Source: Chthonomonas sp. (lineage in GTDB: Bacteria; Armatimonadota; Fimbriimonadia; Fimbriimonadales; Fimbriimonadaceae). From it: a stretch of DNA of 64,000 nucleotides. The notes beneath the pieces were generated by a model. It was not told the DNA's origin and ran no database searches. It saw only the letters and a program-made list of their open reading frames with translations. The position numbers and the translations under genes were made by a program. Location of the stretch: assembly GCA_016788425.1 (NCBI GenBank), contig JAEURQ010000003.1, positions 217,282 to 281,281 on the forward strand, given 5' to 3'. Numbering within the stretch: the first letter of the stretch is position 1; every line of letters begins with the position of its first letter. This document shows positions 29,745 to 38,493 of this stretch, piece after piece.

Positions 29745-30488
29745 TTACGCACTTGCTCGCTTTCTTCGCAACATCATCCCAATTCCGGCCACGCCAAGGA
29801 ACACCAAGCCGCTGGGCTCGGGCACCGGCAGCACGGTCAGCGTCATCAGCCGCGTGTTGCTGGTCCAATCCGGCAGACTCGCAAAGCTATCGCCGCGACC
29901 CGGGACAATGGATTCGTGGACACGGATGCGGTTGAAGCCCGCCGCTTCGGCCGGATTGCCGGAGCCGCCGAGCGCACCCAAGTCGGCGGCGTTTTGGGTG
30001 TTGGCTTCGGTGCCGGCATCCCAGGCTCGCGCGCCGTAGACGTTGACGCTAAAGCCGAGCGGCGTGTTTCCGCCGAATAGCCGCAGCCCCATGCTGCTGA
30101 CGCCCTCGCCGAGGAAGCCGTCGTTGGTCATGCCGAGCATGGTCGCAAACGAGAAGTAGTCCGAACCCGAGTTGACGTTGATCGTCGCCGAGCGCGTGAG
30201 CCCGGGCATCAGCGGCCCGCCCGCCAACACTCCATAGAGCTGCACGTTCGATCCGGCGGCCGCGGCGATGTTAAGCATCGGGTTGACGTTGCCGGATTCG
30301 GCGATGGACTTGATGCCCGCCGACGAGGTTCCGCCAAGGCTGAAGATGTCGAATGAGGCGTTGCCGACCGACCAAAAAAGCGGGCTGAGCGGCTGCGGTC
30401 CGTGGTTGGTCCAGGTGACGGTGAACACTGCCGCGTGGGCCGAGACCGCCGCGAAACAGGACACGATTAATGGTAAACGGAAGTTCAT
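29745..30488 (-). CDS. Spondin-domain PEP-CTERM surface protein
   Basis: A 247-residue exported protein. The signal peptide is MNFRLPLIVSCFAAVSAHA. The body matches the spondin_N-type domain (VTWTNHGPQPLSPLFW, SAGIKSIAESGNVNPML, AGGPLMPGLTRSATI, SFATMLGMTNDGFLG). The C-terminus has a PEP-CTERM tag: VPEPSG, hydrophobic LVFLGVAGIGMML, basic RRKRASA. GGGAGGAAA lies about eight bases before the ATG. It is the first gene of an operon with an ECF sigma factor and its anti-sigma, an arrangement that suggests the sigma controls surface-protein expression, possibly its own operon. Confidence 0.9.
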   Translation of the reverse strand: MNFRLPLIVSCFAAVSAHAAVFTVTWTNHGPQPLSPLFWSVGNASFDIFSLGGTSSAGIKSIAESGNVNPMLNIAAAAGSNVQLYGVLAGGPLMPGLTRSATINVNSGSDYFSFATMLGMTNDGFLGEGVSSMGLRLFGGNTPLGFSVNVYGARAWDAGTEANTQNAADLGALGGSGNPAEAAGFNRIRVHESIVPGRGDSFASLPDWTSNTRLMTLTVLPVPEPSGLVFLGVAGIGMMLRRKRASA

Positions 30489-30936: not shown

Positions 30937-33171
30937 CTAGTCCCCCACCGCGTCAAAGCTCGTCGCCAAAATCGTGTAATCCGCGATGTCCACAATCCCG
31001 TCGCCGTTCAGGTCCGAATCCTGCGGGGCGATGCCGTTGCCGTCCGGCGTCAGCCAGTTCGGGGCCGAACTATCCAGGTCGAAGGCGGCGGCGAGGTACG
31101 AATAGTCCGCGATGTCCACAATGTTGTCGCCGTTCACGTCGCCGTTCTGCAGCGCAAAGGTCAGCCCGCTCACGTTGCTGCTGGTGTCAATCGCCTGCTT
31201 TTCGGCGAGCCACGTGCGGCCTTTGATGCGCAGGTCGTACGCGCCCAGGTTCGCCGTGCCAAAGGCAAAACTCCCGCCTGCGCCGAGCGTCAGGTTCCCG
31301 GATTGCACCACCGTCGCCCCAGTCAGCAACTCATAGGCCACCTGCTTGCCGGTTTCGTCGGCCCAATCCAGCAGGTCCACGGTGCCCGAAACCGTGCTGC
31401 TCGCCTCGATCAGGTATCCCATGCGCACGTCGAGTTTCACGTCGCCCCACGTGCCGACATCGCCGGTGTTCAGGTCGCGCAAACGCACCTGCCAGGCGCC
31501 GTCTGGGTCCTCGTTCCAAAAGCCGTTGACGGTGAACTTCCAGTTCGAAATGTTCGCGCCCGAGTCGCCGCCAAAGTCGGTCAAAAACCGAATCTGTGTG
31601 CCCGCCGGGGAGGTGATCACGCCTTCCACGTCGCCGCGCCAGGGGTGGGTCACGTTCAAGGTCACCACCACGTCCTCCACCTTTTGCGAGGGGTGCTGCG
31701 AGGCGATGTTGATGTTCCGGAAAATGGCCGCGCCCGTGCCATCGGGCAGGGCCGTGTTCACCGAAATCGTGCCGCTGCTCACGGTCGCGGGCAGCCCGAC
31801 GCCGCTATAGGCGCGCGCCAAATCCACCACACCCGAGGCATCGAGCAAGCCAAAACCGTAGTTCGGATTGAACTTCAAGCCCGCCGCGTTGGTCACCCAA
31901 CCGCCGGTCAAGCTGGCGTCGGCGGCATCCACTTGCCGACTCGATCGCGCGATGAGGTGCTTGGCAAAGCGGGCGTCCAAGTTCGGGCGAATCTGCTTCG
32001 CCAAGGCCAAGGCTCCCGCCACTTGCGGGGCGGCGCCCGAAGTCCCGCCAAAGTTCGGGGTGTAGCTGGTGTTCGGGAATCCGTTGTAGCCCGGCGAACC
32101 GCTTCGGTCGGTCGTGAGCAGGCCAATGCTGCTCCCGGCGGTGGGGTTGCTCGGCACGCAGCAAATCAGGTTCGAGCCGAAATTCGAGTAGTCGGCGAAG
32201 ACGCCGTTGTTGCCCATTGCTCCGACGACGATCGCGGAAGGCGTCCCGCGGTCGCTGGACTTGTTGGCGTCTTCCGCGCTCGTGCCACGATAGTTTCCGG
32301 CCGAACGCACGTGAATCGTGCCCGCCGCGCTTGAGGTTTCCAGGGCGTCGGCCAATACGGAGTAGTTCACAAACGGCAACGACACGCCGTAGGAATGATT
32401 CTTAATCTTGATCGCGGTATCCGCGCCACTGCTCTTAAAGAGCGTCGCGTCGGTCAACTGCGTGATCACGTTTCCGGCGCTAAAACTCACCCGGATCGCG
32501 CTGATGCTCGCAAGAGGAGCGACGCCCGTGACGCCAATGCCGTTGCCGCCGCGGGCGGCCATGACTCCGGCCACCGCCGTGCCGTGGTTCTCACTGCCGC
32601 TCGCGGAAGGATTGTTGTCGTTGTTCGCAAAGTCCCAGCTATTCGCCGAGAGGTAGTTCGGAAAAATGTCTTCGTGGCCGTTCTGAATGCCGTCGTCCAC
32701 GATGCACGTGGTCACGCCGAGGCCGGTCACGTCATCGGCATAGGCATCGGCGACGTTGATGTCGCGACCCGCTTCAATCTGGTTCAGCAAGTGCCACTGG
32801 CCACGGTATCCGGCGCTCGGCGCATCTTTGGGGAAGTAAGGGTCGTCAATGACGATCTCGGGTTGAACCGGCACCGCCGGAACCACATACACGGCGGCCA
32901 CCAAACGGTCCATGCGCAAGCCCATCAGAGCCGCATCGCGATCGGCGGCTGACCCAAACTCCATCACGCCCCAACCGGGCGAGCTGAGCAAGGCTCGGGT
33001 GCCGGGAATCGGTAGACCGGTCCGACTTCGCACGATCAGCGTGTTGGTCAGCGGAACCGGGGCGGTGTGAGCGCCAGCCTTGGTTTTGCGCGCGACGATA
33101 TGCTGCGGGAGCTCATCCGCAAACGCGACTAGCCCGCAGGCCAGGAAAATTGCCGTGATCGAAAGCCTCAT
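30937..33171 (-). CDS. Secreted subtilase with P-domain and dockerin-like C-terminus
   Basis: A 744-residue exported S8 peptidase, kexin-like. The signal peptide is followed by a propeptide (to about 110) and the catalytic domain: D159 in IVDDGIQ, H196 in ENHGTAVAG, oxyanion N293 in RSAGN and S378 in GGTSGAAP. The proprotein-convertase P-domain covers about 465-590 (VVTLNVTHPWRGDVEGVITSPAGT in part, DPDGAWQVRLRDLNTGDVG). After a beta-rich linker, residues 672-744 hold two EF-hand-like dockerin repeats (GDVNGDNIVDIADY and SDLNGDGIVDIADY). The ATG has AAAGGG just upstream. It is likely an extracellular or surface-retained protease. Confidence 0.93.
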   Translation of the reverse strand: MRLSITAIFLACGLVAFADELPQHIVARKTKAGAHTAPVPLTNTLIVRSRTGLPIPGTRALLSSPGWGVMEFGSAADRDAALMGLRMDRLVAAVYVVPAVPVQPEIVIDDPYFPKDAPSAGYRGQWHLLNQIEAGRDINVADAYADDVTGLGVTTCIVDDGIQNGHEDIFPNYLSANSWDFANNDNNPSASGSENHGTAVAGVMAARGGNGIGVTGVAPLASISAIRVSFSAGNVITQLTDATLFKSSGADTAIKIKNHSYGVSLPFVNYSVLADALETSSAAGTIHVRSAGNYRGTSAEDANKSSDRGTPSAIVVGAMGNNGVFADYSNFGSNLICCVPSNPTAGSSIGLLTTDRSGSPGYNGFPNTSYTPNFGGTSGAAPQVAGALALAKQIRPNLDARFAKHLIARSSRQVDAADASLTGGWVTNAAGLKFNPNYGFGLLDASGVVDLARAYSGVGLPATVSSGTISVNTALPDGTGAAIFRNINIASQHPSQKVEDVVVTLNVTHPWRGDVEGVITSPAGTQIRFLTDFGGDSGANISNWKFTVNGFWNEDPDGAWQVRLRDLNTGDVGTWGDVKLDVRMGYLIEASSTVSGTVDLLDWADETGKQVAYELLTGATVVQSGNLTLGAGGSFAFGTANLGAYDLRIKGRTWLAEKQAIDTSSNVSGLTFALQNGDVNGDNIVDIADYSYLAAAFDLDSSAPNWLTPDGNGIAPQDSDLNGDGIVDIADYTILATSFDAVGD

Positions 33172-34100: not shown

Positions 34101-34110
34101 ACGGTACCAT
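34101..34110. promoter_or_regulatory. Overlapping divergent -10 hexamers sharing GGTACC
   Basis: Minus-strand TACCGT (34101-34106) lies six bases before the dppA ATG. Plus-strand TACCAT (34105-34110) lies seven bases before the scoB ATG at 34118. The hexamers overlap by two bases around the palindrome GGTACC, so the two promoters should exclude each other. Confidence 0.45.
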
Positions 34111-34117
34111 GACAGGC

Positions 34118-34774
34118 ATGGCTCTTTCCCGCGAACAACTGGCGCAGCGCGCCGCGCAAGAACTCCGTGACGGGTTCTATGTCAACCTCGGGATTGGCAT
34201 TCCGACCCTGGTCGCAAACTACATTCCGGAGGGCATGGACGTGGTGCTGCAAAGCGAAAACGGCATGCTCGGCATGGGGCCGTTTCCATTTGTGGGCGAA
34301 GAAGACCCCGACCTGATCAACGCTGGCAAGCAGACCGTCACCGAGATTCCGGGGACGAGCTACTTTAGCAGCGCCGATTCGTTTGCCATGATCCGCGGCG
34401 GTCACGTGGACCTCACGATTCTTGGCGCGATGGAGGTGAGCGAGCAAGGCGATCTGGCCAACTGGATGATCCCGGGCAAGATGGTCAAGGGCATGGGCGG
34501 CGCGATGGACCTTGTCGCCGGAACCAAGAATGTCGTCGTGGTGATGGAGCACGCCAACAAAGCCGGTCAAAGCAAGGTGCTGCGCGAGTGCTCGCTGCCA
34601 CTCACAGGCAAGGGATGCGTCAACCTCATCATCACCGATCTCGCCGTATTCGCTGTCACGCCCGAAGGTCTGGTGCTGCGCGAGCACGCCCCGGATGTAA
34701 CCGTGGACGAGATCAAATCGAAGACCGAAGCGGTCTTTACTGTGGCCAGCGACCTCCGTCCGATCGCGGTCTAA
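34118..34774 (+). CDS. scoB: 3-oxoacid CoA-transferase subunit B, without subunit A nearby
   Basis: Beta subunit of a succinyl-CoA:3-ketoacid (or acetate) CoA-transferase, which activates acetoacetate by CoA transfer. The 218-residue protein has the beta-subunit signature [17 protein letters not shown] and the catalytic glutamate in [11 protein letters not shown], plus [23 protein letters not shown]. The ATG at 34118 fits a leaderless start; an ATG at 34109 is also in frame. A functional enzyme needs an alpha subunit, normally the adjacent gene, and none is encoded on either side here. Confidence 0.92.
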
Positions 34775-35797: not shown

Positions 35798-36205
35798 ATG
35801 TCTTTGGATCGGGACACAATCCAACAATCCCTGCGCACTGCCCGCGAGTTTGGGCTGCGCGTGGTCAAGTTGCAAAGCGGCGACGATAAATTTCGCGCCG
35901 TGCTGAGCGCATCGGTGGAAGCGGACGAGCCCGAAACCGAAGAGTTTGCGGCGGTGTTTACCAACGAGCCCGACCCGATTAAAACAGTGTGCTCGCCCGT
36001 GGTCGGCTTTATGAAGGCGGCCAAAGTCAACCTCAAGGTTGGCGGCAAAGTCGAAGCCGGTCAGGTCATCGGCGAGGTGATGGCGCTCGGATTGGCCAAC
36101 GATATCGTGTGCGATCACGCGGGCGAAATCACCGAAGTCCTGGCCAAAGATGGTGAGCCCCTGGAATATGGCGGCGGCGTCATCCGCGTGAAGGTGACGT
36201 CGTGA
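35798..36205 (+). CDS. Biotin carboxyl carrier-like protein lacking the biotinyl lysine
   Basis: A 135-residue protein in the accB position before biotin carboxylase. The C-terminal domain (residues 65-133) has the biotinyl/lipoyl fold text CSPVVGFMKAAK, VGGKVEAGQVIGEV and ITEVLAKDGEPLEYGG. The biotinylation site, normally EAMKxxN, reads MALGLAN, with G98 at the lysine position, so it cannot carry biotin. The N-terminal half (DTIQQSLRTAREFGLRVVKLQSGDDKFRAVL) resembles the AccB N-terminus. It could be a non-catalytic regulator like the plant BADC proteins, or a decayed copy. Start ATG 35798 follows a -10 hexamer. Its stop overlaps the next gene by four bases. Confidence 0.85.
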   Translation: MSLDRDTIQQSLRTAREFGLRVVKLQSGDDKFRAVLSASVEADEPETEEFAAVFTNEPDPIKTVCSPVVGFMKAAKVNLKVGGKVEAGQVIGEVMALGLANDIVCDHAGEITEVLAKDGEPLEYGGGVIRVKVTS

Positions 36206-36534
36206 AGTTTCTGCTCCCCGCCCTTGCGTTGTTGCTCATTGGCTGCGATTCGGGCCTGGAGAACAAGCGCCTCGACCAAGAAGGCCATACCGTCGTCGGG
36301 CAGACGTTCGCCCGGGCCAAAGACGAAGTCTGCATGTCGAATCTGCGCTCGCTCCGGCAGTCGGTCGAGCTTTATCGCTCGCAATCGGAAGACAATGCGA
36401 ACCCGCCCGTGCTGATCGGTCTGCCGGGTATTCCGGAAAGCATGACCAGCGACCCGATTGACCACAAGCCTTACGAATACAATCCCGCGACCGGCGAAGT
36501 CAAATGCAACCACCCGGGGCATAGCAAATACTGA
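36202..36534 (+). CDS. Small predicted lipoprotein in the acc operon
   Basis: A 110-residue protein started by GTG at 36202, overlapping the carrier-like gene by four bases. The signal ends in a lipobox, LLLIGC, with the cysteine at residue 15. The mature part ([31 protein letters not shown]) resembles the soluble helix of prepilin-like proteins in this phylum, and the end has [18 protein letters not shown]. Two further cysteines could form a disulfide. Function is unknown; embedding within a fatty-acid operon is unexpected for a lipoprotein. Confidence 0.75.
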
Positions 36535-37892
36535 TGTTCAAGAAAGTTCTGATTGCCAACCGAGGCGAGATCGCCTGCCGAGTGATGCGCGCGTGCCGCG
36601 AGCTCGGCATCGAAACCATCGCCATCTATTCCAAGGCCGACAAAGATAGCCTGCACGTGCGCTTGGCCGATCGCGCCATTTGCGTGGGCGAGGGCAGCAA
36701 CTCTGACTCGTATTTGAACCTCGCGAACGTGATGATGGCGGCGCAGATTAGCGGGGCCGAGGCGGTGCACCCGGGCTATGGCTACTTCAGCGAGCGCGCG
36801 AACTTTGCCGCCGCTCTGGAGGAAATGGGAATCAAGTTCATCGGGCCTGGCCCGAGCGCCATCGAAGCCATGGGCGACAAGGCGGCCGCCAAAAAGGCAG
36901 CGATCCTTGCCAAGTGTCCGGTTGTTCCGGGTTCGGAAGGGGCAGTGGATACCGACACCGAGGCAATGCGACTTGCCGACGAGATTGGTTACCCCGTGTT
37001 GCTCAAAGCGGTTGCCGGAGGCGGCGGACGTGGCATTCGCCGGGTGGATGACCCGAGCGAACTTCAGCGAATGTGGAAGCTAGCCCAATCCGAGGCTCAG
37101 GCGAGCTTTGGCAACGGCGACCTCATCGTCGAAAAGTGCGTGGTCGAGCCGCGACACGTGGAGATTCAGATTTTTGGCGACCAGCACGGCAACGTGATTC
37201 ACCTTTGGGAGCGCGAATGCTCGGTGCAGAATCTTCGCCACCAAAAAATTGTCGAAGAAGCGCCGTGCGTGAGCCTCCCCGAAAAGACGCGCCGCGCGAT
37301 GGGCGAGGCCGCCGTTCGCGTGGCCAAGCAGGTGGGCTACAGCAACGCCGGGACGGTCGAGTTTATCGTCGATCAGTCGGGCAAGTACTACTTCCTTGAG
37401 ATGAACACCCGGCTGCAGGTGGAGCACCCCGTGACCGAAGAGATCACCGGTCTTGACCTTGTACGGCTACAACTCATGGTCGCCAACGGCGAAAAGCTGC
37501 CGCTCACCCAGCGCGACGTGTTGCTGGAAGGTCACAGCATCGAGGCGCGCATTACGGCCCAAGACCCCGACAAGGAGTTCGCGCCGAGCACGGGAAAAAT
37601 CACCAAGTGGAATGCGCCGGGTGGACGCGGCGTTCGCATGGACACGCACGTGTACGCCGGATTCACGATCACCCCGTTTTACGATCCGATGATCGCCAAG
37701 CTCATTGTCACCGGTCGCACCCGCGACGAGGCGGTGCAGCGGCTGGCGGTTGCGCTTCACGAGTTTGACGTCGAAGGGATCGCCACCAACATCCCGTTCC
37801 TGCGCCGATTGGTCGCCCACCCGGATTACCGCAGCAACAACATCAGCACCGCGTTTGTTGGACGATTCCTCAACGAGGCTGTGCATGCCTGA
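36534..37892 (+). CDS. accC: Acetyl-CoA carboxylase biotin carboxylase subunit
   Basis: ATP-dependent carboxylation of biotin on the carrier protein, first step of malonyl-CoA formation. It has 452 residues, normal length. The opening [36 protein letters not shown], the ATP-grasp glycine loop [34 protein letters not shown] and the catalytic [20 protein letters not shown] are all present. The ATG overlaps the lipoprotein stop (TGATG) and the end overlaps nusB by eight bases. Confidence 0.97.
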
Positions 37893-38493
37893 GGATCGCG
37901 CGGAGTACGATTTTCCGCCGGTCAAGTCGCGCTTCGGGGCCCGCGAGGCCGTGTACTCGGCGCTGTTCGCGGCCGCCGGCATGGGGTGGCGCGCCAACCA
38001 GGTGCTCGACCTATTCCTCGCCGCAGAGGGCACAACGCCGGAAGCTCGCGAATATTGCACGACCTTGTTCAAGGGGGTTATCGAGGACTTCGACCTGATT
38101 GATAGCGTGATCACGCCCCACCTGGCGCGCGGATGGACGCTGGACCGCATCGCGATGACCGACTTGACGGCCCTGCGCATGGCGGTGTTTGAGCTCTACC
38201 ACGTGCCCAGCATTCCGCCGCGAGTGACCATCAACGAGGCGGTGAACCTGGCCAAGCGATTTGGCACGCCCGAAAGCGGCAAGTTTGTGAACGGCGTGTT
38301 GGGCGCCATTTTGCCCAAGAGCCCCAAGGCCAACTGGACGCCGCCCGCGCCGGAGGAGGTTCCTGAGCCGACGTTGCCGGAAGTCGTGGCCGAGGACACC
38401 GCTCGAACCGAGGTGGAAGAATTCCACGAAGACGCCCCCGAGATCGTTGATCCGGCCGAACCGATCCTCAGCTGGTCTATAAAAGAAGTATAA
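37885..38493 (+). CDS. nusB: Transcription antitermination factor NusB with C-terminal extension
   Basis: A 202-residue protein whose ATG at 37885 lies within the end of accC. Residues 15-140 are the NusB helical domain (SRFGAREAVYSALFAAAG, WTLDRIAMTDLTALRMAVFELYH, INEAVNLAKRFGTPESGKFVNGVLG), which binds boxA RNA with NusE for ribosomal RNA antitermination. An acidic, proline-rich tail of about 55 residues (PAPEEVPEPTLPEVVAEDT and onward) is extra compared with typical 140-residue NusB. Confidence 0.94.
   Translation: MPEDRAEYDFPPVKSRFGAREAVYSALFAAAGMGWRANQVLDLFLAAEGTTPEAREYCTTLFKGVIEDFDLIDSVITPHLARGWTLDRIAMTDLTALRMAVFELYHVPSIPPRVTINEAVNLAKRFGTPESGKFVNGVLGAILPKSPKANWTPPAPEEVPEPTLPEVVAEDTARTEVEEFHEDAPEIVDPAEPILSWSIKEV

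Follow-up and report, generated by a model that had tools for sequence, protein, structure and literature searches.

Why would a bacterium keep, at the head of the operon for its biotin carboxylase, a biotin carrier-like protein that lacks the lysine to which biotin is attached? Acetyl-CoA carboxylase (ACC) is the first enzyme of fat synthesis and commits carbon to fatty acids. The question is raised by accB2 (35798-36205, + strand), the first gene of the operon in the window, the whole stretch of 64,000 nucleotides from Chthonomonas sp. that was analysed. Its reading frame runs from ATG to TGA without a frameshift and encodes an AccB-like protein of 135 amino acids, as judged from sequence, domain matches, alignments, and an AlphaFold2 model. 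The GGA codon at 36089-36091 (+ strand) places Gly98 at the position of the biotinyl lysine, an assignment based on the sequence, the alignments, and a hairpin turn in the model. Residues 95-98 read M-A-L-G in place of E-A-M-K, and the hairpin as a whole reads V-M-A-L-G-L-A-N-D-I against V-E-A-M-K-x-x-N-E-I in AccB. Alignment with the normal AccB of the same genome, which sets VMALGLANDI over IEAMKVFNEI, gives K-to-G at residue 98 and confirms what the earlier note had described, namely EAMKxxN replaced by MALGLAN in an intact frame. At -3 relative to the lysine position, 41 of 42 AccB1 proteins have a Glu, which none of the 30 aligned AccB2 proteins of family f1 has. This Glu (E119 in E. coli) matters for biotin ligase. 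A lysine shifted by one residue was considered and rejected for the window copy; a K at +1 occurs in six distant AccB2 copies (f41, f43, f44, f45). Judging by these residues, the window AccB2 cannot carry biotin.

The fold around the missing lysine has been retained, as the earlier note had also held. The accB2 product scores 35.9 bits against the Pfam model Biotin_lipoyl (cut-off 22.1), and its best NCBIfam model is the biotin carboxyl carrier protein (BCCP) model TIGR00531, at 43.1 bits, far under the cut-off of 115.2. An AlphaFold2 model from the single sequence was unusable (pLDDT 39), whereas a model built from 11 sequences, the window protein and its relatives, reached a mean pLDDT of 78 and mostly 79-90 across the biotinyl domain. 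In this model, L97-G98 forms the turn of the biotinyl-lysine hairpin, joining strands 90-96 and 99-104. The top structural match is E. coli BCCP from the biotin carboxylase complex (4hr7_G; Z 12.4, 1.3 A, 72 residues), and Arabidopsis BCCP1 (9a87) matches with Z 12.2 and 35% identity. AccB2 is thus predicted to have the BCCP fold, a flattened beta barrel, preceded by an N-terminal helix-hairpin similar to that of AccB. It shares with bacterial AccB/BCCP (TIGR00531; E. coli 4hr7 and 1bdo) this fold, the order of N-terminal helix-hairpin, linker, and biotinyl domain, and the slot before accC. It differs from them in having Gly for Lys, in the loss of the Glu at -3 (f1), in a score below the equivalog cut-off, and in a shorter thumb loop. 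The thumb of the window AccB2 comprises 12 residues between conserved glycines, five fewer than the 17 found in 42 of 42 AccB1; across the phylum AccB2 thumbs are mostly of 12 residues or fewer, with 17 in 23 copies.

The genome itself (2.67 Mb, 99.9% complete) encodes a separate, lysine-bearing AccB (EAMKVFNE) on contig C2, near 497570. The search proposed by the earlier note thereby found its target, and the idea that accB2 is the sole AccB of the genome is rejected. Only two biotin carboxylases are present, the window accC and one within an 807-codon frame, and the carboxyltransferase alpha gene lies elsewhere in the genome. One BPL_LplA_LipB domain was found in this genome, and no BPL_C domain.

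Searches with profiles of both AccB kinds in a phylum sample of 126 genomes from 42 families place this pair in a wider setting. Armatimonadota have two ancient AccB paralogues, AccB1 and AccB2, which a branch with SH-aLRT 99 separates in a tree built from a short alignment (88 columns). A second AccB match is present in nearly all phylum genomes searched (53/56 and 42/44). AccB1 lies apart from accC and has the lysine in all 42 rows, which come from 38 genomes, a few being the same gene fetched twice. The gene for AccB2 is the leading gene of the accC operon through most of the phylum. Among 126 AccB2 copies, 36 have K at the lysine position and 90 have another residue: G in 57, R in 18, and D, T, H, S, and N in 3 each. 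On an AccC tree (91 proteins) that stands in for the species phylogeny, the lysine state changes at least 14 times, and at least 10 of these changes are forced by well-supported branches. The AccC tree itself gives no direction to these changes; losses are likelier than gains because the lysine-bearing AccB2 proteins keep the whole E-S-M-K motif. Since the lysine changes state repeatedly while the gene is kept, the subunit can evidently work without biotin. One locus (L064 in G089, an assembly 73% complete) has an additional accB-accC pair in which the EAMK motif is normal and AccC identity is only 52%, attributable to lateral transfer or contamination.

Individual genomes suggest that the two paralogues belong with the same carboxylase. 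The nearly complete genome G179 encodes just one biotin carboxylase, whose operon also carries a lysine-less AccB2, and its lysine-bearing AccB1 lies elsewhere; with a single AccC available, that enzyme must charge AccB1. Two reduced genomes of the window's family (G059 and G060, 1.5 Mb) have no AccB2. In the stead of AccB1, they have a weak biotin-domain match beside an HMG-CoA-lyase-like gene, and their single biotin carboxylase is other than the operon-type AccC and lies, in G059, beside an enoyl-CoA-hydratase-like gene. With these neighbours named from a reading of their sequences, the remaining carboxylase is probably of the methylcrotonyl-CoA type. AccB1, AccB2, and the operon-type AccC are apparently all absent from both genomes and thus seem to go together.

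A precedent for such a protein exists in plastids. The heteromeric ACC of plants contains, beside true BCCP, motif-less BCCP paralogues known as BADC (BADC1-3 in Arabidopsis), which lack the AMKL motif, act as 'glue', and have been described as exclusive to plant ACC (PMC11926652). Whether their role is that of glue or inhibitor has been debated (PMC11926652; PMC7712654). The comparison with BADC drawn by the earlier note appears to fit well, although the note had missed the small gene that follows accB2, the second paralogue throughout the phylum, and the many independent losses. The likeness consists of a motif-less BCCP paralogue with a shared BCCP fold, and a PDB profile search gave no chain labelled BADC among the matches listed. 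AccB2 is placed with BADC on the basis of its likely function and is not counted as a family member by descent. Unlike its plant counterpart, it is bacterial, is encoded in the accC operon, and has lost the lysine many separate times within one phylum. The epsilon (glue) subunits of actinobacterial acyl-CoA carboxylases, unlike AccB2, are not known to be related to BCCP. They are comparable to the proposed AccB2 as non-catalytic bacterial subunits that aid assembly of a biotin carboxylase complex (PMC11926652). A search of the open-access literature found no description of a lysine-less bacterial AccB or BCCP, which is weak evidence.

The reading we favour, with a probability of roughly 60%, is that AccB2 corresponds in bacteria to BADC, as a non-catalytic subunit which would bind AccC and AccB1 and set the assembly or activity of ACC. 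AccB1, encoded elsewhere and always equipped with lysine and thumb, would be the working carrier. AccB2, made beside AccC, would most likely belong to the same complex; it probably binds AccC during synthesis from the coupled operon and pairs with AccB1, and like BADC in plastids it would stabilise or meter the AccC-AccB1 subcomplex. Because plant BADC touches the thumb of BCCP (PMC11926652), a short-thumbed AccB2 together with a thumbed AccB1 would fit such a division of labour. The ancestral role of AccB2 may have been that of a second active carrier, since 36 of 126 copies, over a quarter, keep the lysine.

The same facts would also be explained if AccB2 were mainly an inhibitor, occupying the BCCP site of AccC and lowering ACC activity, so that the ratio of AccB2 to AccB1 acts as a control knob. 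Plant BADC has likewise been read as competing with BCCP for biotin carboxylase (PMC7712654), but later reconstitution work in plants favours the glue role (PMC11926652), and the sequence holds nothing that separates inhibition from assembly. The operon bears on this point. It comprises four overlapping, translationally coupled genes: accB2; a conserved gene for a small membrane protein or lipoprotein of 110 amino acids (36202-36534, + strand), whose GTG overlaps the accB2 stop (GTGA); accC, for the biotin carboxylase of ACC (36534-37892, + strand; TIGR00514 above cut-off), whose start overlaps the preceding stop (TGATG); and nusB (37885-38493, + strand; TIGR01951 above cut-off, start codon inferred), which shares its first 8 nt with the end of accC. 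Because accB2 is the first gene of the accC operon, its product increases together with its target, as would be expected of a stoichiometric subunit more than of a switch. The inhibitor role is accordingly a possible but less probable account than the BADC-like subunit, at perhaps one chance in five.

A promoter scan of the + strand upstream of the operon detected no sigma-70-like site. Farther upstream lie genes for a 3-oxoacid CoA-transferase subunit B (34109-34774), with no subunit A partner noticed among the open reading frames listed nearby, and for a subtilisin-like protease with dockerin-like repeats at its C-terminus (30937-33171), the latter neighboured by a protein with a PEP-CTERM-like sorting tail (29745-30488). 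In the related family f3 (L070, L071, L072, L074), a lysine-less AccB2 (EVLG) is kept unlinked from accC and the small gene, which counts against the favoured reading.

The small gene modifies the arrangement given in the earlier note: accB2 does head the accC-nusB operon, but accC is not directly next, a 110-codon open reading frame (36202-36534) lying between them. Its product has no Pfam match in the window's species and, read directly, a lipoprotein-like LIGC; one homologue has a prepilin N-methylation motif (PF07963, E 4e-7). A prepilin-like gene is found at this position in every one of the 30 loci read from the family and in most phylum loci, and a conserved cysteine/histidine sequence, C-x-H-P-G-H-x-K-Y, was observed at the C-terminal end of the protein. 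The small protein could dock the carboxylase at the membrane. Its conserved position, which in most loci is between accB2 and accC, would also suit a role outside ACC, such as membrane docking or an envelope function, for which AccB2 and the prepilin-like protein borrow AccC. That reading is improbable: the perfect biotinylation motif of many AccB2 copies points to a carboxylase ancestry, and AccB2 is missing where the operon-type AccC is missing.

Marginally less probable still is an autoregulator of its own operon that no longer needs biotin. In E. coli, AccB is reported to autoregulate its operon through its N-terminal part, accB2 comes first in the operon, and the N-terminal 36 residues of AccB2 are conserved, with A15, G19, and F32 invariant. 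However, the biotinyl domain, for which an N-terminal regulator would have no use, is kept at least as strongly as the N-terminus, and AccB2 persists in f3 apart from accC.

The gene is conserved well beyond the window. A strong accB2 match is present in 80 of 85 genomes of the same family, the other five being three incomplete assemblies and the two reduced genomes of 1.5 Mb. Gly occupies the lysine position in all 70 family orthologues read (30 + 40), and the conservation across the order that the earlier note had suggested checking was found, a single Thr being the exception in the genomes read. A scan of species-representative genomes with ALG[LI]ANDV[VE] yielded 10 confirmed relatives, all with titles naming Armatimonadota, Fimbriimonas, or Chthonomonas, a result that says little on other motifs in other phyla. 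In three close pairs, dN/dS for accB2 is 0.066, 0.037, and 0.057; the gene is under strong purifying selection despite the missing lysine, and the decay into a pseudogene that would have spoken against the earlier note is not seen in relatives. A decaying relic kept only by translational coupling to accC, for which the GTGA and TGATG overlaps might speak, is very unlikely and, like a pseudogene or chance, was rejected on dN/dS of 0.04-0.07, on A96 and G98, invariant in 26 AccB2 sequences, on retention when unlinked in f3, and on frames intact in the copies read.

For the phylum, the history that we favour by a small margin is one in which two AccBs were present ancestrally and the accC-linked one turned about ten or more times into a conserved, non-biotinylated subunit, a convergent counterpart of BADC. 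If this is true, a cofactor-free pseudo-carrier would be a recurrent architectural part of heteromeric ACC and no peculiarity of plants. Lysine-bearing and lysine-less versions in one operon slot of one phylum constitute a natural experiment on the function of this subunit, in organisms simpler than plants and with many independent replicates.
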